In this document: positions 8,332 through 53,052 of the stretch, in pieces
Layout of the letters: every line of letters begins with the position of its first letter
Numbering within the stretch: position 1 is the first letter of the stretch
Assembly: GCA_027484575.1 (NCBI GenBank)
Contig: JAIXSQ010000003.1
Coordinates: 21,992 to 85,991 of the forward strand
Length of the DNA: 64,000 nucleotides
Source: Comamonadaceae bacterium
GTDB lineage: Bacteria; Pseudomonadota; Gammaproteobacteria; Burkholderiales; Burkholderiaceae_C
Reading direction: 5' to 3'
Made by a program: the position numbers and the translations under genes
The notes under the pieces: model-generated
Database searches by the model: none
What the model was told of the DNA's origin: nothing
What the model saw: the letters and a program-made list of their open reading frames with translations, nothing else

Positions 8332-10802
8332 GTCGTGGCCTCCTCGCGCGGCTGCGGCGCCGGCAGCGTGTCGAACTGCCGCAGGTCCACCTGGGCCTGT
8401 GCATGCTGGAACCAGGGGTCGGGCTCGCCGTCCAGGGCGAACTGCAGCCGCTCCCACAAGGCCTTGCGCTGGGCGGCGTCGTCGAGGATGCGCTTCTTGA
8501 CGCTGTCCAGGCCCACCCGCGCCAGCCAGTGCACGGTGCGCTCGAGGTACCAGCCTTCCTCGCGGTACAGCTGCAGGAAGGCGCCGGCGTACTCCAGCAC
8601 CTCCTCGGAGGTCTTCACCTTCACGAAGAACTGCGCCACCTCGGTCTTGATGCCGCCGTTGCCGCCGACGTACAGCTCCCAGCCGGAGTCCACGCCGATC
8701 ACGCCCACGTCCTTGATGCCCGACTCGGCGCAGTTGCGCGGGCAGCCCGAGACCGCCAGCTTGACCTTGTGCGGCGCGTACATGCGCCACAACGCGCGCT
8801 CCAGGTCCTTGCCCATCTGCGTGCTGTCCTGGGTGCCGAAGCGGCACCACTCGCTGCCCACGCAGGTCTTGACCGTGCGCAGGGCCTTGGCATACGCATG
8901 GCCCGAGGGCATGCCCAGGTCCTGCCACACGGCCGGCAGGTCCTCCTTCCTGACGCCCAGCAGGTCGATGCGCTGGCCGCCGGTGACCTTGACCGTGGGG
9001 ATGGCGTACTTGTCGACCACGTCGGCGATGCGGCGCAGTTCGTCGGCGGTGGTCTCGCCGGCCCACATCCGCGGGATCACCGAATAGGTGCCGTCCTTCT
9101 GGATGTTCGCGTGGCTGCGCTCGTTGATGTAGCGCGACTGCGGATCGTCCTTGGCCTCCTTGGGCCAGGTGGAGATCAGGTAGTAGTTCAGCGCCGGCCG
9201 GCAGGTGGCGCAGCCGTCGGGCGTGCGCCACTCCAGGAAGCGCATGGTGGCCGCCATCGAGGTCAGCCGGTTGGCGCGGATCGCCTCGCGCACGGCCTGG
9301 TGGCCGTGGTCGGTGCAGCCGCAGACCGCCTTGGTCTTGGGCGTGGCCGAGTAGTCGCCGCCGGCCTTGAACATCAGGATCTGCTCGACCAGCCCGGTGC
9401 ACGAGCCGCAGGAGGCGCTGGCCTTGGTGTGCTTGCGCACCTCGTCCAGCGTGAACAGGCCCTTGTCCTGGATCGCCTTGCAGATCGCGCCCTTGGTCAC
9501 GCCGTTGCAACCGCAGACCTCGTCGCTGTCGGCCATGGCGGCGGCCTTGCTCTGACCCTGGTGGCCGGTGTCGCCCAGGTTGGATTCGCCGAACATCAGC
9601 TTGTCGCGCATCTCCGCGACGCTGCGGCCCTCGCGCAGCAGCTTGAAGTACCAGCTGCCGTCGACGGTGTCGCCGTACAGGCAGGCGCCCACCAGCTTGT
9701 CGTCCTTGAGCACCAGCTTCTTGTAGACGCCCCCCACCGGATCGCTCAGCACGATCTGCTCGCAGCCCGCGCCGCCCTGGAAGTCGCCGGCCGAGAACAG
9801 GTCGATGCCGGTGACCTTCAGCTTGGTCGAGGTGAGCGAGCCGGTGTAGCGGCCGATGCCGTGCTGCGCCAGGTGGTTGGCCGCGACCTTGGCCTGCTCG
9901 AACAGCGGCGCCACGAGGCCGTAGGCGATGCCGCGGTGCGCCGCGCATTCGCCCACCGCCCAGATGCGGGCGTCGGTGACGGTCTGCAGCGTGTCGTGCA
10001 CCACGATGCCGCGGTCGCAGTGCAGGCCGGCCGAGGCGGCCAGCTCGGTGCTGGGGCGGATGCCCACGGCCATCACCACCAGCTGCGCCGGCAGCTCGCT
10101 GCCGTCCTTGAAGCGGATCGCGGCCACGCGGCCGTCGGCGCCGGCCACCAGTTCCTGCGTGTGCGCCTGCATGCGGAACTTCAGGCCGCGCGCCTCCAAT
10201 GACTGCTGCAGCAGCCCGCCGGCGGTCTCGTCCAGCTGGCGCTCCATCAGCCAGGGCATGACGTGCACCACGGTCACGTCCATGCCGCGCTTGGCCAGGC
10301 CGTTGGCCGCCTCCAGCCCGAGCAGGCCGCCGCCGATCACCACCGCATGCTTGTGTTTGGCGGCGGCATCGATCATGGCCTGCGTGTCGGCGATGTCGCG
10401 GTAGGCGATCACGCCGGGCAGGTCCTTGCCGGGCACCGGCAGCATGAACGGGTTGGAGCCGGTGGCCAGCAGCAGCCGGTCGTACGGCGCCTCGGTGCCG
10501 TCGTCGGCCACCACCACCCGGCGCACACGGTCGATGCGCGCGACCTTGCGGCCGGCGTGCAGCGTGATGCCGTTGTCCTCGTACCAGGACCAGGGGTTCA
10601 GGACGATCTCGTCCAGGGTCTGCTCGCCGGCCAGCACCGGCGACAGCAGGATGCGGTTGTAGTTGGGGTGCGGCTCCGCGCCGAACACGGTGATGTCGTA
10701 CATCCCCGGCGCGACCTTCAGCAGTTCCTCCAGGGTGCGCACCCCGGCCATGCCGTTGCCCACCATCACCAGCCGCGGGCGCGGCTTGACGCGCATGTCC
10801 AT
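8328..10802 (-). CDS. nirB: NADH-dependent nitrite reductase large subunit
   Basis: This 824-residue cytoplasmic enzyme reduces nitrite to ammonium. In order it shows an FAD/NADH oxidoreductase domain (VMVGNGMAGVRTLEELL; VVIGGGLLGLEAANGLAKRG), two BFD-like [2Fe-2S] segments (CGCNGVTKGAICKAI; CGSCTGLVEQ), then the siroheme/[4Fe-4S] domain with CVGSEWCRFG and SGCPRNCAES providing the cluster Cys residues. Length is normal for the family. The start may be 10802 or the Met two codons later. It lies 11 bases from the nitrate transporter ATPase stop and overlaps the next gene as ATGA, all in one nitrate-assimilation operon. Siroheme probably comes from CobA downstream. Confidence 0.97.
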   Translation of the reverse strand: MDMRVKPRPRLVMVGNGMAGVRTLEELLKVAPGMYDITVFGAEPHPNYNRILLSPVLAGEQTLDEIVLNPWSWYEDNGITLHAGRKVARIDRVRRVVVADDGTEAPYDRLLLATGSNPFMLPVPGKDLPGVIAYRDIADTQAMIDAAAKHKHAVVIGGGLLGLEAANGLAKRGMDVTVVHVMPWLMERQLDETAGGLLQQSLEARGLKFRMQAHTQELVAGADGRVAAIRFKDGSELPAQLVVMAVGIRPSTELAASAGLHCDRGIVVHDTLQTVTDARIWAVGECAAHRGIAYGLVAPLFEQAKVAANHLAQHGIGRYTGSLTSTKLKVTGIDLFSAGDFQGGAGCEQIVLSDPVGGVYKKLVLKDDKLVGACLYGDTVDGSWYFKLLREGRSVAEMRDKLMFGESNLGDTGHQGQSKAAAMADSDEVCGCNGVTKGAICKAIQDKGLFTLDEVRKHTKASASCGSCTGLVEQILMFKAGGDYSATPKTKAVCGCTDHGHQAVREAIRANRLTSMAATMRFLEWRTPDGCATCRPALNYYLISTWPKEAKDDPQSRYINERSHANIQKDGTYSVIPRMWAGETTADELRRIADVVDKYAIPTVKVTGGQRIDLLGVRKEDLPAVWQDLGMPSGHAYAKALRTVKTCVGSEWCRFGTQDSTQMGKDLERALWRMYAPHKVKLAVSGCPRNCAESGIKDVGVIGVDSGWELYVGGNGGIKTEVAQFFVKVKTSEEVLEYAGAFLQLYREEGWYLERTVHWLARVGLDSVKKRILDDAAQRKALWERLQFALDGEPDPWFQHAQAQVDLRQFDTLPAPQPREEATT

Positions 10803-10813
10803 TCGTTGCTCCT

Positions 10814-11629
10814 TCAGGCGGCCAGCTTTTCCACGTGGGCCTGCCGCGTGTACAGGAAGTCGATCACGGCCTTGCGGGCGTGCAGGTAGCGCGTGTCCTC
10901 GGCCAGGGCCACGCGGTCGCGCGGGCGCGGGATGTCCACGTGCAGGATCTCGCCGATGGTGGCGGCCGGCCCGTTGGTGAGCATCACGATGCGGTCGGAC
11001 AGCAGCACGGCCTCGTCGACGTCGTGGGTGACCATCACGACCGTGCTCTGGGTCTTGGCCACGATCTGCAGCAGTTCGTCCTGCAGCTTGGCCCGGGTCA
11101 GGGCGTCCAGCGCGCCGAAGGGCTCGTCCATCAGCAGCACCTTGGGCTCCATCGACAGCGCGCGGGCGATGCCCACCCGCTGCTTCATGCCGCCCGAGAT
11201 CTCGCCGGGGCGCTTGGCCGCCGCCGCGGTCAGGCCCACCAGCGCCAGCGCGGCGTCGGTGCGGGCCTTGAGCTGGGCGCGGCTTTCGGTGGCGCCGAAC
11301 ACCCGCTCGACCGCCAGGTGCACGTTCTCGAAGCAGGTCAGCCAGGGCAGCAGCGAGTGGTTCTGGAACACCACCGCGCGGTCGGGCCCGGGGCCGGCGA
11401 TCTCGCGGTTGGCGCAGATCAGGCTGCCGGTGCTGGGCCGGGTCAGGCCGGCGATCAGGTTCAGCAGCGTGGACTTGCCGCAGCCCGAGTGGCCGATCAG
11501 GGCCACGAACTCGCCCTTGGCCACGGTCAGGTCGATGCCCTGCAGCGCGACGAACGGACCCTTGGCGGTCTTGAAGGTCTGGCCGACGCCCTGGACCTGG
11601 ATGTACTTGGTGGTCAGGGACTCGCTCAC
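10814..11629 (-). CDS. nrtD: Nitrate ABC transporter ATP-binding protein
   Basis: This 271-residue ABC ATPase energises nitrate import with NrtA and NrtB. It shows Walker A (GHSGCGKST), the Q-loop region, the signature (ISGGMKQRVGIARAL), Walker B (VLLMDEPFGALD) and the switch His (VTHDVDEA), which places it in the nitrate/sulfonate/taurine class. It lacks the C-terminal binding-protein-like domain of cyanobacterial NrtC. The start is GTG at 11629, overlapping the permease stop as GTGA. The symbol nrtD (also called nasD or ntrD) is given by context. Confidence 0.92.
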   Translation of the reverse strand: MSESLTTKYIQVQGVGQTFKTAKGPFVALQGIDLTVAKGEFVALIGHSGCGKSTLLNLIAGLTRPSTGSLICANREIAGPGPDRAVVFQNHSLLPWLTCFENVHLAVERVFGATESRAQLKARTDAALALVGLTAAAAKRPGEISGGMKQRVGIARALSMEPKVLLMDEPFGALDALTRAKLQDELLQIVAKTQSTVVMVTHDVDEAVLLSDRIVMLTNGPAATIGEILHVDIPRPRDRVALAEDTRYLHARKAVIDFLYTRQAHVEKLAA

Positions 11630-12567
11630 GATTTCACGTCCTCGTAGGTGAAGGCCGAGGCCAGCTTGATCAGGGCCGCTTCGAGCAGCAGGCCGACGAT
11701 GCCGATGACGCCGATGGCGATCAGGATGTTCTTGACGTTCAGGTTGTTCCACTCGTCCCACAGCCAGAAGCCGATGCCGGTGCCGCCGGTGAGCATCTCG
11801 GCGGCGACGATCACCAGCCAGGCCGTGCCCACGGCCAGCCGCACGCCGGTGAGCATGTAGGGCAGCACCGAGGGCAGCAGGATCTTGGTGACGATCTTCC
11901 ATTCGGACAGCTGCAGCACGCGGGCGACGTTCATGTAGTCGGCCGGCACCCGCTGCACGCCCACCGCGGTGTTGATCACCATCGGCCAGATCGAGCAGAT
12001 GAAGATGGTCCAGATGGCCGCCGGGTTGGCGCCCTTGAACACCATCAGGCCGATCGGCAGCCAGGCCAGCGGCGACACCGGCCGCAGCAGCGAGATCACC
12101 GGGTTGGCCATGCGCGACAGGAAGGCGAAGCGGCCGATCAGGAAGCCCAGCGGGATGCCCACCAGCGCGGCCAGGCCGAAGCCCAGGCCCACGCGCTGCA
12201 GCGAGGCCAGCACGTTCCAGCCGATGCCCTGGTCGTTCGGGCCCTTGCTGTAGAACGGGTCGCCGAAGATCACCAGCGCCTGGCGGCCGGTCTCGGCCGG
12301 CGAGGGGAAGTTGCCCTTGGAGGTGATGGCCACCAGGGCCCAGATGCCCAGCAGCGCGGCGATGCCCAGGATGGGCGGCAGCACCTTCAGCGCGATGCCG
12401 CGCCAGTCGATGCCCGGTGCCGTGGCCGGCAGCTCGGGGATGCCGGCACGCGCGGGCGCGGCGGCGTTGGCGGCGACGGTGCGCACGGCCTGGGTGGGCT
12501 GCGCGACCGGCGTGGCAGGTGGCGCCTGCTCGGGCGCGTCGGGGGTGTGGAACACGGCGGCGACCAT
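11626..12567 (-). CDS. nrtB: Nitrate ABC transporter permease
   Basis: This 313-residue inner-membrane protein forms the channel of the nitrate/nitrite ABC importer. A long Pro/Ala-rich cytoplasmic N-terminus (residues 1-60) precedes about six membrane helices, and the EAA-type loop that docks the ATPase is visible around VQRVPADYMNVARVLQLSEW. TGVRLAVGTAWLVIVAAEM and WDEWNNLN are typical of NrtB/SsuC-type permeases. It is 10 bases downstream of the binding protein and overlaps the ATPase gene by four bases, so the three form a stoichiometric operon. Confidence 0.93.
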   Translation of the reverse strand: MVAAVFHTPDAPEQAPPATPVAQPTQAVRTVAANAAAPARAGIPELPATAPGIDWRGIALKVLPPILGIAALLGIWALVAITSKGNFPSPAETGRQALVIFGDPFYSKGPNDQGIGWNVLASLQRVGLGFGLAALVGIPLGFLIGRFAFLSRMANPVISLLRPVSPLAWLPIGLMVFKGANPAAIWTIFICSIWPMVINTAVGVQRVPADYMNVARVLQLSEWKIVTKILLPSVLPYMLTGVRLAVGTAWLVIVAAEMLTGGTGIGFWLWDEWNNLNVKNILIAIGVIGIVGLLLEAALIKLASAFTYEDVKS

Positions 12568-21937: not shown

Positions 21938-22923
21938 TGCAAGCCGTCGAGATCAGGCACCCCGGCGCACCCGAGGTGCTGCAAGCCTGCGAGCGCCCCG
22001 ACCCCGTCGCGGGTGCGGGCGAGGTGCTGATCCGGGTGGCCGCCAGCGGCGTCAACCGCCCCGACGTGCTGCAGCGCACCGGCAACTACCCGGTGCCGCC
22101 GGGCGCGTCCGACATCCCGGGCCTGGAAGTCGCCGGCACCATCGTGGCCGGCGACGCGCAGGCCATGGCGCGCTCCGGCTTCGCCCTCGGTGACCGCGTC
22201 TGCGCGCTGGTGGCCGGTGGCGGCTACGCGCAGCTGTGCGTCGCGCCGGTGGGCCAGTGCCTGCCGGTGCCCGCCGGCCTGTCCGACGTCGAGGCGGCCT
22301 CGCTGCCCGAGACCTTCTTCACCGTCTGGAGCAACGTGTTCGAACGCGGCCGCCTCCAGGCGGGCGAGACCCTGCTGGTGCAGGGCGGCACCAGCGGCAT
22401 CGGCGTGACCGCGATCCAGCTGGCCAAGGCCCTGGGCGCGACCGTCATCGCGACCGCCGGCAGCGACGCCAAGTGCGCCGCCTGCCTGCAGCTGGGCGCC
22501 GACCACGCGATCAACTACAAGGCGCAGGACTTCGCCGAGGAGGCCAGGCGCCTGACCGGCGGCCGCGGCGTCGACGTGGTCCTGGACATGGTCGCCGGCC
22601 CCTACGTGGCGCGCGAGGTCGAGTGCCTGGCCGAGGACGGCCGGCTGGTGATCATCGCGGTGCAGGGCGGCATCCAGGCCGAACTCAACGCCGGCCTGGT
22701 GCTGCGCCGCCGCCTGACGGTGACCGGCTCCACCCTGCGCCCGCGCCCCGTGGCCTTCAAGGCCGCGATCGCCGACGCGCTGCGTGCGAAGGTCTGGCCG
22801 CTGCTGGCCGCCGGCACCGTCAAGCCGGTGATCCACTCCACGTTCGCGGCCGCCCAGGCCGCGCAGGCGCACACGCTGATGGAATCGAACCAGCACGTGG
22901 GCAAGATCGTGCTGACCTGGTGA
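21937..22923 (+). CDS. NAD(P)H quinone oxidoreductase, PIG3 family
   Basis: This 328-residue medium-chain dehydrogenase/reductase of the zeta-crystallin/PIG3 branch lacks zinc ligands. Visible are the GroES-like N-terminal domain ([34 protein letters not shown] in two parts), and the Rossmann motif [22 protein letters not shown] that binds NADPH. It is in the conserved pnp-qor-tpiA-secG string of Burkholderiales and overlaps pnp by one base (TGATG), so it is translationally coupled. The physiological quinone is not known. Confidence 0.92.
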
Positions 22924-40277: not shown

Positions 40278-40350
40278 GACCGTGGGTCCCCGCCTGCGCG
40301 GGGACGACGGGTCAGGGGCGTCATCCCCGCGAAGGCGGGGATCCACGCAA
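40278..40350. repeat. Palindromic repeat pair between convergent genes
   Basis: An inverted unit (about 40280-40310) and a forward unit (about 40318-40350) lie back to back between the DUF1178 gene and soxA, whose 3' ends face each other. They probably form the shared transcription end. Confidence 0.85.
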
Positions 40351-40381: not shown

Positions 40382-41326
40382 TCAGGGCCGCACGCCCGGC
40401 GTCTCCACCGCCATCCCCAGCGCCCGCTGCGCCAGGTGCAGCTCCAGCGCGACCTGCTCCTGGCCGTGCGGCGCGAAGGGCTCGGCCCGCACCCCCGCCA
40501 GGCAGCCGCGCACCCGCCGCGCCAGCGTGCCGGGGGCCTGCCACTCCAGCCGGTAGATCGGGTAGGCCGTCGCCTGCCCCTGCGGGATGACGGTGCCGCC
40601 CAGCCGGCCGCCGGCGCGTTCGTCGTGGCACTGCGCGCACGACAGCTCCAGCTGGCCCAGGCGCCGCGTCCACAGCGCCGCACCCAGCTGGCGGGCCGGC
40701 GCCAGGCGCGCATCGGCGGGCGGCGCGATGGGCAGCCCGCGCGACTGCAGGCCCACCAGCATCTCCAGCGCGATCGACTCCTCGTGCCCCGCGGGCCAGG
40801 GCGGCAGCCCCTGGTGGCGTTGGCGGCACAGGCCGATGCGCATGCCCAGGTTCACGGGCTGGCCGCCCACCGGGTCCCAGGCCGGGTAGCGCGCCGCCAC
40901 GCCGCGCAACCGCTCGACGCCGCCGTGGCAGCTGGCGCAGCTGCGGCCCTGCGGGCCGGCCGGCTGCGACCACAGCCGCTGGCCGTCCTGCACCCACAGC
41001 ATCGCCGGGTTGGCCGCGTCGTCGCGCTGCAGCGCCTGCGTGGCCGGCGACATGTCCAGGAAGCCGGAGCGCTGCGGGGCCGGCGGGGTGGGCGGCGGCG
41101 GGGCGGTGCAGGCGGCGGCCATGAGCGCGAACAACCCGGCAACGACCAGCTTCGTCGCCCCGGCTCCCCACCGCGTCGTCTTGGCCCTCCACCGCGTCGT
41201 CCCGGCGCAGGCCGGGACCCAGGCTGCCGCGCGCAGCGCGGCGTGCGGCGCATGCGCCACCGAAGACCCTGGGTCCCGGCTGTCGCCGGGAGGACGACGG
41301 CAGAGGAGACGGGCCGCGGTGCTCAC
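40382..41326 (-). CDS. soxA: SoxA-type diheme cytochrome c (start uncertain)
   Basis: The protein carries two c-type heme sites, CASCHGG and CAQCHDE, and the SoxA active-site Cys in RRVRGCLAGVRAEPFAPHG; AYPIYRLEW and VALELHLAQRALGM are family signatures. In sulfur oxidation SoxAX joins thiosulfate to the Cys of SoxY. The frame runs to a GTG at 41326 overlapping the soxZ stop, but the first 55 codons are largely repeat sequence and the real signal peptide (KLVVAGLFALMAAACTA) starts near 41150. Translation may begin at a TTG (41134), ATG (41122) or another codon near there. It is last in the iorAB-soxXYZA operon. Confidence 0.85.
   Translation of the reverse strand: MSTAARLLCRRPPGDSRDPGSSVAHAPHAALRAAAWVPACAGTTRWRAKTTRWGAGATKLVVAGLFALMAAACTAPPPPTPPAPQRSGFLDMSPATQALQRDDAANPAMLWVQDGQRLWSQPAGPQGRSCASCHGGVERLRGVAARYPAWDPVGGQPVNLGMRIGLCRQRHQGLPPWPAGHEESIALEMLVGLQSRGLPIAPPADARLAPARQLGAALWTRRLGQLELSCAQCHDERAGGRLGGTVIPQGQATAYPIYRLEWQAPGTLARRVRGCLAGVRAEPFAPHGQEQVALELHLAQRALGMAVETPGVRP
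41192..41297. repeat. Palindromic repeat doublet at the soxZ-soxA junction
   Basis: A forward unit (about 41195-41225) and an inverted unit (about 41264-41297) surround a spacer with CCGCGCGCAGCGCGG, the exact reverse complement of a spacer segment at 2228-2242. It separates the soxZ stop from the soxA signal-peptide coding region and lies inside the open reading frame of soxA. Confidence 0.85.
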
Positions 41327-41643
41327 ACCACCGTCAGCACGCGCCGCTCCACCTGCGCGAAGCCGTGGTCGCCTTCCCAGCTGAACTCCAGCGGGCCGGT
41401 GACGGTGGCGACCGTGCTGAAGGCCAGGTAGGGGTTGGCCGAGATCGCCGGGTGCAGCTCGGCCTCGAACACCACCGCGCCGTCGTAGCGGCAGGCCAGG
41501 CGCCGCACGATGTCGCGCGGCAGCGGCTTGCCGTCCGCGCCGGGGCGGTAGCCGGTCTCCATCGGGTGGGCGATGGTCACGCGGATGTCCACCACCTCGC
41601 CGCGGCGGGCCTGCGCCGGCAGCACGATCAGCACGCGCGCCAT
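41323..41643 (-). CDS. soxZ: SoxZ-like sulfur carrier subunit
   Basis: This 106-residue protein matches SoxZ: RRGEVVDIRVTIAHPMETGYR with the conserved HPMETG motif, FEAELHPAISANPYLAF and the C-terminal WEGDHGF. It is an immunoglobulin-like partner that holds SoxY. There is no signal peptide, as usual; it would be exported bound to SoxY. It overlaps the soxY stop by one base (TGATG). Confidence 0.93.
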   Translation of the reverse strand: MARVLIVLPAQARRGEVVDIRVTIAHPMETGYRPGADGKPLPRDIVRRLACRYDGAVVFEAELHPAISANPYLAFSTVATVTGPLEFSWEGDHGFAQVERRVLTVV

Positions 41644-42125
41644 CAGCTGCCCTCGCCCTCGAGGCAGGCGGCCAGCGCCACCACCACGTCGACCGCGCCC
41701 ATCCAGACGCTGCCGTCGGACATGCGGGCCAGCGCCGCCACGCGCTGGCTGGTGGCCAGCCGCATGCGCGTGGCCACGCGGGCCCGGCCGGCGCGCGGGC
41801 CGAGGCTGCAGCGCAGCACCTCGCGCTGCGGGTTGCGGTCGGTGAACAGCGCGATCTCGCGCACGTGCTCGGCCTCGGTCATGGGACTGTCGACCGCGAT
41901 GGCCACCGGCACCACGTTGCCGTTGTCCACCAGGGTCGCAATCTCCAGCGTGACGCGGCCGGTGCGCACCGGCTGGCCGGCCGCGAAATCGGCGATCGCG
42001 CCCTGCAGCTGCGTGCCCACGGGCACGCCGGTGCCCTGGGCCAGCACGGGCCGCAGCACCAGCGCGGCGGCGCCGGCGCCCAGGCCGGCGAGCGCGCGGC
42101 GGCGGGGCAGGGTGGGGGAGGGCAT
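41643..42125 (-). CDS. SoxY paralogue with AACLE arm instead of GGCGG
   Basis: This 160-residue protein has a Tat leader (PRRRALAGLGAGAAALVLRP) and a SoxY fold (VGTQLQGAIADFAAGQPV; VPVAIAVDSPMTEAEHVREI). True SoxY ends in the swinging arm GGCGG, whose Cys carries sulfur intermediates. Here the C-terminus reads VVALAACLEGEGS: one Cys is kept but the Gly arm is replaced by AACLE plus a short tail. I recall a described family of SoxY-related 'AACIE arm' proteins, and this fits it. Its cargo is unknown. It lies 10 bases after soxX and overlaps soxZ. Confidence 0.85.
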   Translation of the reverse strand: MPSPTLPRRRALAGLGAGAAALVLRPVLAQGTGVPVGTQLQGAIADFAAGQPVRTGRVTLEIATLVDNGNVVPVAIAVDSPMTEAEHVREIALFTDRNPQREVLRCSLGPRAGRARVATRMRLATSQRVAALARMSDGSVWMGAVDVVVALAACLEGEGS

Positions 42126-42135
42126 GGGGTTCCTG

Positions 42136-42600
42136 TCAGCGCAGCGTGGCCAGCCAGGCCACCACGTCCTCGACCTGCTGCGCAGTCAGGATGGGGCGTC
42201 CCTGCCAGGCGCCGCCCACGCGCGACGCGTTGGTCGTGCTGTGGAAGGCCGGCATGAAGCTGGACGGGTTGAGGTGGCGCGGGTCGACCACGCGCAGCCG
42301 CAGCTGGGCCGCGCCATAGCGCGCGCCCACGCCGGCGAGCGAGGGGGCCAAGTCGCCCTGGAACCGCTCCTCGGGGATGGGCGCCGCGTGGCACAGCAGG
42401 CACAGGCCCTGCTGCCGGCTGGCGACGATGGCGCGCCCGCGCGCCGCATCGCCCGGCTGGTCGGTCAGCGGCTGCGCGATGCGGTCGCCCTCGACGACGT
42501 AGGGCACCACGGCCGGCGTGCCCGCCGCGCCCTGCGCGAGCGCCGCACCGGCGGCACCGGCCGCCAGTGCGGCCGCGAGCAGGGTGCGGCGCACCGTCAT
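42136..42600 (-). CDS. soxX: SoxX-type monoheme cytochrome c
   Basis: This 154-residue protein has a cleavable signal (residues 1-22, ending ALAQ) and a single heme site CLLCHAAP with a likely distal Met in SSFMPAF. GRAIVASRQQGLCLLCHAAP, EERFQGDLAPSLAGVG and PILTAQQVEDVVAWLATLR are SoxX hallmarks. In the Sox system it receives electrons from SoxA. The start overlaps the molybdenum subunit stop as ATGA, coupling it to iorB. Confidence 0.9.
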   Translation of the reverse strand: MTVRRTLLAAALAAGAAGAALAQGAAGTPAVVPYVVEGDRIAQPLTDQPGDAARGRAIVASRQQGLCLLCHAAPIPEERFQGDLAPSLAGVGARYGAAQLRLRVVDPRHLNPSSFMPAFHSTTNASRVGGAWQGRPILTAQQVEDVVAWLATLR

Positions 42601-44831
42601 GCCTTCAGGCTGTGGTGCTTGAGCGGCAGCGTGCGGATGCGCTTGCCGGTGGCCGCGTAGATCGCGTTGAGCACCGCCGGCGCGGCCACGGCGATGGTGG
42701 GCTCGCCCACGCCGCCCCAGAAGCCGCCCGAGGGCACCAGCACGGTCTCGACCTTGGGCATGTGCCGCATCTGCACCACCGGGTAGTCGGCGAAGTTGCT
42801 CTGCACGATGCGCCCGTCCTTGACGGTGCACTCGCCGTACAGCGCCGCCGACAGCCCGTAGGCGAACGAGCCCTCGACCTGGGCCTCGATCTGCTGCGGG
42901 TTCACGGCGTGGCCCGGGTCGGTGGCCGCGACGATGCGGTGCACCGTGAGCTCGCCGTCCTTGTCGACCGAGACCTCGGCGCAGGCCGCCACGTAGGCGC
43001 CGAAGCCCATGGTCTGGGCCAGGCCGCGGTACACCTTCTGCCCGCGCACGTCGGGGGCGGGCCTGTCCCAGCCCACCCGCTGCGCCACCGCCTCCAGCAC
43101 CGCCAGGTGCTTGGGATGCCCGGCCATCAGCTTGCGCCGCAGCGCCAGCGGGTCCTGGCCGGTGGCGGCCGCGACCTCGTCGAGGAAGCACTCGAGGTAG
43201 ATCGCGTTCTGGTTCAGGTTCACCCCGCGCCAGAAGCCCGGCGGCACCGACGGGTTGCGCATTGCATGCTCGACCAGCAGGTTGGGCACTGTGTAGCCGA
43301 TCGCCGCCTCGGCGCCGCCGGCGGGCATCAGGCCCTGGAACACCACGGGGTCGCGGCCGTTCTGGATCGCCTGCGGGTTCACGCCGGCCAGGATGGACTG
43401 GCCCGCGATGCGCACCTGCAGCGCCACCAGGTTGCCCTGCGCGTCCAGGCCGGCCTGCAGCTTGCACTGCGTCACCGGGTGGTAGCGGCCGTGCTGCATG
43501 TCCTCCTCGCGGCTCCACAGCAGCTTGACCGGCGTGCCGGGCAGCTCCTTGGCGATCAGCACCGCCTGGCGCACCCAGTCGTGCACCGCGCCGCGCCGGC
43601 CGAAGCCGCCGCCCAGGTGGATCTTGTGCACCTCGCACTGGCGGATCGGCAGGCCCGCCGCCTCGGACGCGGCGGCCAGCGCCGCCTCGCCGTTCTGCGT
43701 GGGCGTCCACACCTCGCAGCGCTCGGGCGTCCAGCGCACCGTGGCGTTCATCGGCTCCATGGTCGCGTGGTTCTGGTGCGGGTAGCCGTACACCGCCTCG
43801 ATGCGGCGGGCCGCGCCGGCCAGCGCCGCCCTGGCATCGCCCACCGTGTTGCCGGCCACCGCGTCGCCGGTGTCGAGCGCGGTGCGCAGCTCGGCGGCGA
43901 ACTGCTCGCTGCTGGCCTTGGCGTTCGGGCCTTCGTCCCAGGTGATGGGCAGGGCGTCCAGCGCGCTCTTGGCCCGCCACCAGGTGTCGGCCACCACGGC
44001 CACCGCGCTGTCGCCCACCTGCACGACCTTCTTGACGCCGGGGCGCTTGGCGATGGCCGCCGCATCGAAGGACTTGACCTTGCCGCCGAACACCGGGCAG
44101 TCCTTGATCGCGGCGTTGAGCAGGCCGGGCATGGTCAGGTCGGCGCCGTAGACCTGCTTGCCCGTGACCTTCTCGGCCGTGTCCAGCCGGGCCAGGCGCT
44201 GGCCCGCCAGGGTCCAGGTCTTCGGGTCCTTCAGCGGCACGTCGGCCGCGGCCGGCGCGGGCAGCTTGCCGGCCGCCTCGGCCAGCTGGCCGTAGGTGAA
44301 CGTGCGCCCGGTGGGCTGGTGCGTCACCACGCTGCGCGCGGCGCGGCACTCGGCGGCCGGCACGCTCCAGCGTTGCGCGGCCGCCTGCACCAGCAGCATG
44401 CGCGCGGCCGCGCCGCCCTTGCGCACGTACTCGTGCGACTCGCGGATGCCGCGGCTGCCGCCGGTGGAGAAGTTGCCCCAGACGCGGTTGCGCGCCAGGT
44501 TCTGCCCCGGCGTGGGGTACTCGGTGGTCACCTTGCGCCAGTCGGCATCGAGCTCCTCGGCCACCAGCTGCGCCAGGCCCGTGAGCGTGCCCTGGCCCAT
44601 CTCGGAGCGCGCGATGCGGATCACGATGGTGTCGTCGGGCCGCACCACCACCCAGGCGTTGACCTCGGGCGGCAGCGCGCCGGCGGCGGCTTGCGCCTGC
44701 GCGGCCGCGGGCACATGGAAGCCCAGCGCGAGGCCGGCACCCGCGGCCGAGGCGGCGAGGGTGAGGAAGCCGCGGCGGTCGAGCAGCGCGGCGCCACGCA
44801 CGTCGGTGGCGGTGTCGGCGGCGGCGCTCAT
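42597..44831 (-). CDS. Periplasmic molybdenum hydroxylase large subunit (IorB/xanthine dehydrogenase family)
   Basis: This 744-residue molybdopterin-cytosine-dinucleotide-type subunit has a Tat leader ([19 protein letters not shown]), so it is periplasmic. Family motifs: [67 protein letters not shown] and [19 protein letters not shown], with the conserved catalytic Glu after GVG. It resembles isoquinoline 1-oxidoreductase and aldehyde dehydrogenases of the IorB class. The substrate is unknown. Its stop overlaps soxX, suggesting that electrons leave through a c-type cytochrome. Confidence 0.9.
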
Positions 44832-45331
44832 GCCACGCTCCCGTCGGCGTGCCGGATGTCCAGCCCGGCGTTGCGGGTGTTGCCCGCGGCCACGGCCTTG
44901 ATGGCGGCGCGCACCCGGTTGTAGGTGCCGCAGCGGCAGATGTTGGTCATGGCCGCGTCGATGTCGGCGTCGGTGGGCTGCGGCTTGTCGCGCAGCAGCG
45001 CGGCCGCGGCCATCACCATGCCGCACTGGCAGTAGCCGCACTGCGGCACGTCCAGCGCCACCCAGGCCTTCTGCACCGGGTGCGAGCCGTCGCGCGACAG
45101 GCCCTCGATGGTCACCACCTTGGCCTTGGCGTCCACGCTGGAGACGGGCCGCACGCAGCTGCGCGTGGGCACGCCGTCGATGTGCACCGTGCAGGCGCCG
45201 CAGGCGGCGATGCCGCAGCCGTACTTGGTTCCGGTGAGCCCCAGCTGCTCGCGCAGCACCCAGAGCAGGGGGGTGTCGGGTTCGGCGTCGAAGCTGCGCA
45301 CCTGCCCGTTGACGTTGAGTCGTCGTGCCAT
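44828..45331 (-). CDS. Molybdenum hydroxylase [2Fe-2S] subunit (IorA family)
   Basis: This 167-residue subunit carries two [2Fe-2S] clusters: the plant-ferredoxin-like [17 protein letters not shown] with a later Cys in TRSCVRPV, and the C-terminal [16 protein letters not shown] plus [14 protein letters not shown]. It feeds electrons from the Mo site of IorB outward. It has no signal peptide and is presumably co-exported with the Tat-dependent large subunit. It is the first gene of the six-gene iorAB-soxXYZA operon; the start codons overlap throughout. Confidence 0.93.
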
Positions 45332-52965: not shown

Positions 52966-53052
52966 GCCGTCATCCCGGCGAAGGCCGGGATCCAGTGACT
53001 TTCCCCAAGGCCGTCGAAGTCTCTGGGCCCCGGCCTTCGCCGGGGTGACGGG
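52966..53052. repeat. Palindromic repeat doublet between convergent genes
   Basis: A forward unit (about 52968-53000) and an inverted unit (about 53022-53052) face each other between the thioredoxin-like gene and the oppositely oriented AttH gene. This is the last copy in the window; none is seen from 53.1 to 64 kb. Confidence 0.85.

Follow-up and report, generated by a model that had tools for sequence, protein, structure and literature searches.

What do Sox proteins do in an operon that has no SoxB and that opens with the two subunits of a molybdenum hydroxylase? This question is raised by a 64,000-nucleotide stretch from a Comamonadaceae bacterium (here, the window; contig C5 of genome G000, positions 21992 to 85991), in which six genes in the order iorA-iorB-soxX-soxY-soxZ-soxA occupy positions 40382 to 45331 of the minus strand. 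SoxB is the enzyme that ordinarily sets sulfate free when sulfur is oxidized by the Sox pathway. A comparison of neighborhoods and protein sequences across genomes supports the reading that iorAB and soxXYZA belong together as a single conserved unit and that this unit is separate from the canonical Sox cycle. We consider it very probable that the six genes are also one functional unit that stands apart from the thiosulfate cycle.

Gene order and the SoxY arm across loci

The operon's SoxY belongs to the family TIGR04487, which is matched above its cut-off in 39 of the 299 genomes of our family draw. We assembled 152 loci, namely, 52 neighborhoods from the family draw (taken down to about 87 bits), 20 from a phylum draw of 398 genomes, and 80 named loci, the last being the best 80 of 579 and hence biased to complete operons. 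Removal of duplicates by the C terminus of SoxY left 139 distinct loci. The complete six-gene order on one strand is present in 132 of the 152 loci and in 120 of the distinct ones. The original prediction had named a random neighborhood in other genomes as the outcome that would speak against it; a chance neighborhood or an artefact is ruled out by the conserved gene order and arm. Among the 19 incomplete distinct loci, nine are cut by contig ends (L051, L067, L082, L104, L106, L117, L120, L141, and L142), five have a SoxY of another type and no IorAB (L085, L086, and L213 to L215), and five are variants, losses, or unclear cases (L048, L055, L076, L079, and L081). The last of these, L081, consists of iorAB-soxYZ only. 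Of the 132 distinct loci that extend far enough on the relevant side, 130 have IorB together with a SoxY with an AC-type arm, the exceptions being L055 and L079; the distance is at most 1 kb in 115 of the 130 and at most 2.3 kb in another 14, and the remaining locus has a distance of 5.1 kb.

The arm itself, which carries the carrier cysteine Cys154 and reads AACLE in the window (positions 41658 to 41672, assigned by alignment and by the tally that follows), takes the place of the canonical GGCGG. Across the 152 loci the arm is AACIE in 75, AACLE in 28, AACVE in 21, AACTE in 10, SACTE in 4, and AGCVE in 2, with AGCIE, SACVD, SACVE, VACIE, SACID, AACLI, and AACVI seen once each. The pattern [A/S/V][A/G]Cx[E/D] thus describes 145 of the 152, and AACLI and AACVI, both from the family f57, add 2 more; in these two f57 loci (L210 and L211) the acidic residue is absent. 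GGCGG (three loci), SGCGM (one), and GSCGL (one) are confined to the five loci without IorAB. One of those five, L213, scores 144 bits against TIGR04487, above several true arm variants; therefore, the arm and the partner change together, and not with overall similarity.

In the window, the six genes overlap or nearly touch, as predicted. The first gene, iorA (44828 to 45331), encodes the 167-residue [2Fe-2S] small subunit of a molybdenum hydroxylase, recognized by its Fer2_2 (98.3 bits) and Fer2 (36.2 bits) Pfam domains, which make up both [2Fe-2S] domains, and by its conserved place beside iorB. It overlaps by 4 bases with iorB (42597 to 44831), whose 744-residue product is the molybdenum-binding large subunit, with a xanthine oxidase (XO)-family fold, matches to Pfam MoCoBD_1 and MoCoBD_2, and an N-terminal RR (Tat-type) signal. 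A second 4-base overlap leads into soxX (42136 to 42600), which encodes a monoheme c-type cytochrome of 154 residues with the motif CLLCH (80 bits to TIGR04485, cut-off 61). After a gap of 10 bases follows the soxY paralogue (41643 to 42125), a 160-residue "SoxY-related AACIE arm protein" that scores 186.7 bits to TIGR04487 (cut-off 172) and 81.2 bits to the true-SoxY family TIGR04488, under its cut-off of 125 and without the canonical GGCGG arm. It shares 1 base with soxZ (41323 to 41643), which encodes the 106-residue partner subunit of the carrier and matches Pfam SoxZ at 88.7 bits (cut-off 25) and TIGR04490 at 74.1 bits, slightly below the cut-off of 76. A final 4-base overlap joins soxZ to soxA (40382 to 41326), which encodes a diheme c-type cytochrome whose conserved part spans about residues 84 to 314, as supported by alignment, by TIGR04484 (197 bits, cut-off 110), and by a best match in the PDB to 1h31_A (147.7 bits). 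Judged from these overlaps, separate transcripts for iorAB and soxXYZA are unlikely.

The original prediction also held that heme, cluster, and active-site motifs are intact, which holds for those that we checked in the operon's proteins. SoxA has the heme motifs CASCH and CAQCH, and its heme-ligand Cys275 is invariant in an alignment of 17 SoxA rows. Cys154 and E156 of SoxY are invariant in 43 sequences (the window plus 42 of the 50 loci L035 to L084), and Glu710 in the GVGEP motif of IorB (codon at 42702 to 42704) is invariant in 30 (the window plus 29 of the 47 available); as in its enzyme family, Glu710 is taken to be the catalytic residue. The best match to IorB in the PDB by sequence is 8gy3_C, the large subunit of the Gluconobacter aldehyde dehydrogenase, which is also the top Foldseek match to the AlphaFold model of IorB (pLDDT 79.8; TM 0.79/0.80; 28% identity). 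IorB has no match to TIGR04555, the sulfite oxidase-family molybdenum subunit of SoxCD.

The start of soxA is unsure, because the N terminus of its frame is about 60 residues longer than those of relatives and holds a dispersed repeat (41196 to 41220). This palindromic repeat occurs in 8 copies in the window at up to 3 mismatches, with 0 expected, and lies also at 40284 to 40308, at 52969 to 52993, and at five other places. Since the copy at 41196 lies within the extended 5' frame, the normal export of SoxA is in doubt.

SoxB, FccAB, and the rest of the genome

The claim that the system lacks SoxB stands for the operon and fails for the genome. A search for a separate canonical sox cluster found one on contig C13, with SoxB (834 bits), SoxA, SoxZ, a GGCGG-type SoxY, and SoxC (598 bits), the last being the genome's sole TIGR04555 match; SoxX of this cluster was not identified. 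Genes resembling those for FccAB, the flavocytochrome c sulfide dehydrogenase, lie within the same 20-kb stretch. The SoxA of the C13 cluster is 26% identical to that of the operon and is missing the first CxxCH. The two are separate systems.

The presence of SoxB in this genome does not extend to all carriers of the operon. Of 51 genomes with an AACIE-type SoxY, 36 have a SoxB above the cut-off and 14 lack it, while the remaining one, an incomplete genome, has only part of the gene. For the family draw as a whole the figure is 163 of 299. Thirteen of the 14 SoxB-less loci hold all six genes. Among named isolates with the operon, 17 of 32 have SoxB, and those without it include Ramlibacter monticola, Rhizobacter sp. 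OV335, Noviherbaspirillum sp. Root189, Pseudoduganella flava, and Duganella levis. In the phylum draw SoxB was found in 16 of 20 genomes, and the four without it are the four f57 genomes, in each of which the SoxY of the operon is the only SoxY and neither SoxB nor SoxC is present (4/4). Of 19 genomes examined for SoxC, two had a match over the cut-off, namely, that of the window and G119. In genus g241, each of the nine genomes (6 to 9 Mb) carries an AACIE-type SoxY, a SoxY close to SoxB, and a frame of roughly 280 to 330 amino acids that matches SoxY. These comparisons point to INDEPENDENCE of the AACIE-arm SoxY operon from SoxB, with a mild enrichment of SoxB and no dependence on it. Ordinary SoxB-dependent thiosulfate oxidation, which the original prediction had set down as a possible refutation, does not explain the operon, given that 14 of the 51 genomes are SoxB-less and that f57 has no other SoxY.

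Which proteins, if not SoxB, accompany the operon? Clustering of neighboring open reading frames, performed on 52 loci and then on 150 plus the window, identified FccAB as the only recurrent partner that is mechanistically telling; other recurrent neighbors (dihydrolipoamide-type, HslV-like, and TctC-like binding proteins) appear, as judged by eye, to track host relatedness or to be scattered. The FccB flavoprotein has FCSD domains, and its best PDB match is 5n1t_A at 495 bits. It is encoded in 33 of the 120 distinct complete loci: 13 have the gene between iorB and soxX, 17 have it downstream of soxA, and in 3 it lies divergently upstream of iorA. The operon loci that bear it come from alphaproteobacteria, Oxalobacteraceae, and Rhizobacter. 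Putative further examples, by annotation, are operon loci on plasmids of Methylobacterium sp. NMS14P, Neorhizobium galegae, and Roseomonas marmotae, in which a gene labeled as an NAD(P)/FAD-dependent oxidoreductase sits at the position of fccB. The f57 loci L210 and L211, whose genomes lack SoxB and any second SoxY, encode FccB inside the operon, and genes for XdhC and a MocA-like protein come immediately behind soxA.

Genome-wide, FccB is present in 53 of 55 genomes with an AACIE-type SoxY, and the two that lack it are 90% and 85% complete. Among SoxB-less genomes (no match at E 1e-100), FccB was found in 14 of 14 with an AACIE-type SoxY versus 42 of 120 others (Fisher p 1.7e-6; the FccB and SoxB tests are uncorrected for kinship, and the 14 genomes come from 9 genera). 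Among named isolates, SoxB occurs in 5 of 18 with FccB in the locus versus 12 of 14 without it (p 0.0016), a difference that largely follows the Oxalobacteraceae. The tie to FccAB points to sulfide or persulfide as an intermediate.

Other arrangements of IorAB and candidate mechanisms

The same partners recur in a second arrangement. In a sister group of IorAB (56 to 58% identity), drawn from a set at 56 to 60% in the IorB search, iorAB faces soxXYZA across their 3' ends in seven loci (L246 to L250, L256, and L258), with SACFD or TACFD as the SoxY arm and with SoxX undetected in L250. Next to the operon type, the IorB proteins of this convergent type make up a clade with full support in our trees of 51 and 47 sequences (a further tree held 67). 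Because the same partners recur in different arrangements, we argue for a functional link between them. The one convergent-type SoxY that was scored reached 58 bits to TIGR04487 (cut-off 172), and since this is far below the cut-off, such loci would go unnamed.

The idea that IorAB is exclusive to Sox loci proved false, as IorAB proteins of the same clade were found without soxXYZA. G110 (L255, 71% identity) has iorAB, but the 4.6 kb that follow it are free of sox genes; in L259 (G160, 66% identity) iorB has an internal stop, no sox genes are nearby, and the locus is apparently decaying. In Sinorhizobium, Agrobacterium, and Methylosinus trichosporium OB3b, iorAB lies on plasmids next to a cytochrome c gene; tblastn detected no soxXYZA within the loci that were fetched, and the IorB proteins fall inside the sox-linked clade. 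The cytochrome c gene follows iorB in Agrobacterium and precedes iorA in OB3b; the three Sinorhizobium neighborhoods that were read have it ahead of iorAB, again with no soxXYZA near. In Agrobacterium and OB3b, xdhC and mocA adjoin iorAB. On pSymA of Sinorhizobium medicae ml29 (L268), the order is cytochrome c-iorA-iorB without soxXYZA, with a two-component system upstream and, downstream, a "sorbosone dehydrogenase family" gene, a possible hint of a sugar or aldehyde substrate.

How different are these IorB proteins from those with Sox partners? Of 188 IorB positions that are near-invariant in 119 sox-linked IorB sequences, S. meliloti changes 2, S. medicae 3, OB3b 0, and Agrobacterium 9; the sox-linked Roseomonas protein also changes 9, and operon members left out one at a time change 0 to 4. 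With 186 and 188 of the 188 positions kept in S. meliloti and OB3b, the enzyme looks much alike without Sox partners. In some of these cells a substitute carrier is possible, because OB3b has GGCGG-type soxYZ and soxB on the same plasmid as IorAB, and because, of 29 Sinorhizobium/Rhizobium records that hold such an IorB, 4 encode a SoxY as well (these 29, of 36, being the records whose IorB is at least 79.5% identical to that of S. meliloti). In two of these four, S. meliloti T073 (L271) and Rhizobium gallicum M101 (L272), soxYZ is followed by fccAB and SoxY ends in NGCL or NGCR; on pSymA of S. meliloti R11 (L270), fccAB directly follows soxYZ. In the 3 to 4 kb fetched on each side of these three loci there was no soxXA or soxB.

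Taken together, these comparisons suggest a SoxB-independent periplasmic unit in which IorAB, as a cytochrome-linked molybdenum hydroxylase at its core, would oxidize a small, probably sulfur-containing compound and SoxXA-SoxYZ (with FccAB) would take up electrons and sulfur, a mechanism that we put forward tentatively and, as a whole, at somewhat less than an even chance. IorAB, exported by the Tat route as its signal suggests, would hydroxylate a substrate that need not be bound to a carrier, and electrons would pass from its [2Fe-2S] clusters to SoxX/SoxA. An exit of electrons through SoxX/SoxA, part of the original prediction, fits the gene content, because cytochrome c takes their place in loci without soxXYZA. 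Sulfur at the thiol or sulfide level, once released, would be conjugated by SoxXA to Cys154 of SoxY; since that cysteine is invariant, the SoxYZ with the altered arm is probably kept for something covalent. FccAB, whether encoded within the operon or at another site of the genome, would then oxidize or exchange this sulfide or persulfide. SoxB and SoxCD would not be needed, and for that reason the sulfur would probably leave as sulfane or polysulfide, not as sulfate.

Several observations weigh against this reading. At the level of the operon, two of the 120 complete loci (L119 and L156) carry about 5 kb inside it, and L076 is without soxA. L055, in a genome that is 90% complete (G074), has soxXYZA with an AGCVE arm, but iorAB is missing from the 5 kb upstream of it, and a search of that genome at E 1e-180 gave no IorB match. 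Neither iorB nor soxX was found on L079, a 4.3-kb contig with 1.7 kb of room. In L048 (G197; 8619 to 12311), iorA-iorB-soxY-soxZ is intact, soxX is gone, and soxA is in fragments, and G184 has iorAB-soxYZ without soxXA and a SoxY with the arm SACVD. SoxB is slightly enriched with the AACIE-type SoxY (36 of 51 versus 127 of 248 genomes, p 0.013, kinship ignored). FccB is common in the family anyway (203 of 299) and shows no association with the operon's SoxY in SoxB-bearing genomes (35 of 37 versus 112 of 128, p 0.37). IorAB of the operon clade lacks soxXYZA in at least five places in the tree, which means that IorAB does not strictly require the Sox part. The closest solved structure to IorB is that of an aldehyde dehydrogenase, and nothing was found that indicates sulfur in the substrate of IorAB. 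As a side observation, G197, which carries L048, is a one-contig genome without SoxB.

Is the substrate itself bound to the carrier? This was the proposal of the original prediction, in which the molybdenum enzyme hydroxylates a carrier-bound substrate. In its fuller form, SoxXA would conjugate a thiol or sulfane to Cys154 and the loaded SoxY arm would enter IorAB, which would either hydroxylate the attached group or oxidize the sulfane, thereby standing in for SoxCD and SoxB. Consistent with this, IorB accompanies the AC-arm SoxY in nearly every locus with room for it, the arm is altered only where IorAB is present, iorAB and soxYZ stay together where soxX or soxA is missing (L048 and L081), and cells whose IorAB lacks soxXYZA can have other SoxYZ (OB3b and the 4 of 29 records). 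Yet the soxXYZA-less IorB proteins change no more of the 188 positions than sox-linked members do (2 in S. meliloti, 0 in OB3b), and for that reason IorB shows no sign of a SoxY-specific constraint; moreover, no SoxY was found on the record itself in 25 of the 29 Sinorhizobium/Rhizobium cases. The substrates of XO-family enzymes are aldehydes and N-heterocycles. To our knowledge, oxidation at sulfur or hydroxylation at an sp3 carbon would be new for them, which also counts against this explanation. The proposal is thus weakened by the near-unchanged IorAB of loci without soxXYZA, although the other SoxYZ in some cells leaves room for it; we regard an obligately carrier-bound substrate as doubtful on these comparisons and the explanation as a whole as unlikely, at something under one chance in four.

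Slightly less probable still is that the Sox proteins merely serve the enzyme. Here, IorAB would oxidize an ordinary aldehyde or heterocycle, and SoxXA-SoxYZ-FccAB would guard it against sulfide or thiosulfate or would pass sulfane sulfur to its molybdenum center and so renew the sulfido ligand in the periplasm. The dependence does look one-sided, with IorAB lacking soxXYZA in at least five places in the tree versus SoxY without IorAB twice (L055 and L079), but this one-sidedness is weaker where cells have other SoxYZ. FccB, found in 14 of 14 SoxB-less genomes, could supply or remove sulfide. Maturation genes for XdhC and MocA adjoin the IorAB that lacks soxXYZA in Agrobacterium and OB3b but match in just 3 of the 120 operon loci, as if SoxYZ might stand in for XdhC; however, two of these three are the f57 loci L210 and L211, with xdhC and mocA directly after soxA. 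Because both loci carry XdhC as well as SoxYZ, SoxYZ does not replace XdhC, and we downgraded that idea. Exported relatives such as the Gluconobacter aldehyde dehydrogenase are not known to need such a service, which counts against it. A related idea has been published, in that PMC11237559 puts forward a SoxYZ fusion as shielding methanol dehydrogenase from thiosulfate.

An explanation by electron relay alone appears improbable, at about half the weight of the preceding one. SoxX and SoxA would be the cytochromes of an aldehyde or sugar dehydrogenase, with soxYZ a passenger of a captured sox block. Cytochrome c is indeed encoded beside the IorAB that lacks soxXYZA, and in Pseudomonas simiae a cytochrome c gene also adjoins the iorAB-like genes for deoxyribose dehydrogenase (PMC6365646). 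A passenger role for SoxYZ is at odds with the invariance of Cys154 and E156 in 43 SoxY sequences, with the active-site Cys275 that SoxA keeps, and with the retention of soxYZ in both architectures, even after the loss of soxXA (L048 and L081). Finally, a variant of thiosulfate oxidation, in which the operon's SoxYZ would feed the genome's own SoxB and SoxCD, is very improbable, since the SoxB and SoxC of the window's genome and the mild enrichment of SoxB with AACIE-type SoxY are set against the 14 of 51 genomes without SoxB, which largely refute it, the four of four f57 genomes without SoxB and SoxC, the loss of the GGCGG arm, and the finding, stated in PMC5748708, that soxY1 and not soxY2 of Bradyrhizobium diazoefficiens is essential for thiosulfate oxidation. 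The Bradyrhizobium soxY2 may be of the AACIE type.

Meaning and relation to known systems

Annotation labels most genes of the operon as sulfur oxidation, and bacteria that have only this operon could be miscounted as thiosulfate oxidizers, which they probably are not, at least by the known cycle. The named loci include Ramlibacter, Polaromonas, Massilia, Duganella, Noviherbaspirillum, and alphaproteobacteria. If our preferred reading of IorAB with SoxXA-SoxYZ and FccAB is true, it represents an unrecognized sulfur-linked oxidation route that is widespread in soil and freshwater bacteria. The SoxB-less isolates and the genomes with a sole SoxY make the role of the AACIE-arm SoxY directly testable.

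In open-licence PMC literature, we found no paper that links an AACIE-arm SoxY to IorAB, and none that uses the name "AACIE arm." The combination of an XO-family molybdenum hydroxylase, SoxXA-SoxYZ with an [A/S]ACx[E/D] arm, and FccAB, without SoxB or SoxCD and self-sufficient where it includes the sole SoxY, may represent an undescribed periplasmic organosulfur route, a possibility to which we give roughly one chance in three. The SoxY paralogue itself is already a named family. TIGR04487 is an NCBIfam family of the exception type, and the window's SoxY, with its AACLE arm, lies above its cut-off; the family entry names the SoxY paralogue only. What is established here is the partnership with IorAB, the existence of a second, convergent architecture, and the tie to FccAB.

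Three known systems share parts with the operon. The first is the group of SoxYZ-like carriers that are tied to a dehydrogenase and not to SoxB, to which TIGR04557 and the divergent SoxYZ of symbionts belong. According to PMC11237559, divergent SoxYZ lie beside dimethyl sulfoxide reductase and alcohol and methanol dehydrogenases, and roles outside thiosulfate oxidation are proposed for them. The TIGR04557 and symbiont proteins are SoxY-SoxZ fusions beside pyrroloquinoline quinone or alcohol dehydrogenases, whereas the operon has separate SoxY and SoxZ together with SoxXA and a molybdenum hydroxylase; in the window the two genes are separate and score 57.8 bits (SoxY) and 37.9 bits (SoxZ) against TIGR04557, whose cut-off is 140. 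The second comprises the cytochrome c-linked IorAB enzymes, namely, the Gluconobacter aldehyde dehydrogenase (8GY3) and the P. simiae deoxyribose dehydrogenase, which have in common with the operon the [2Fe-2S] and molybdenum subunits, an RR signal, and genes for cytochrome partners. In the operon, however, the cytochromes are SoxX and SoxA, and the covalent carrier SoxYZ is added. FccAB (5n1t, 3vrd, and 1fcd) is likewise a known enzyme, found in other operon loci; it is absent from the operon of the window, near whose genome's canonical sox cluster it lies instead.

The third is the canonical Sox system, SoxXA-SoxYZ-SoxB with or without SoxCD. It shares with the operon SoxX, a SoxA with its heme-ligand cysteine, the C-terminal cysteine of SoxY, and a SoxZ, although that of the window falls just short of the TIGR04490 cut-off. 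The operon differs from it in lacking SoxB and SoxCD, in having an AACxE in place of a GGCGG arm, in encoding a molybdenum hydroxylase instead, and in its presence in genomes that have no SoxB.

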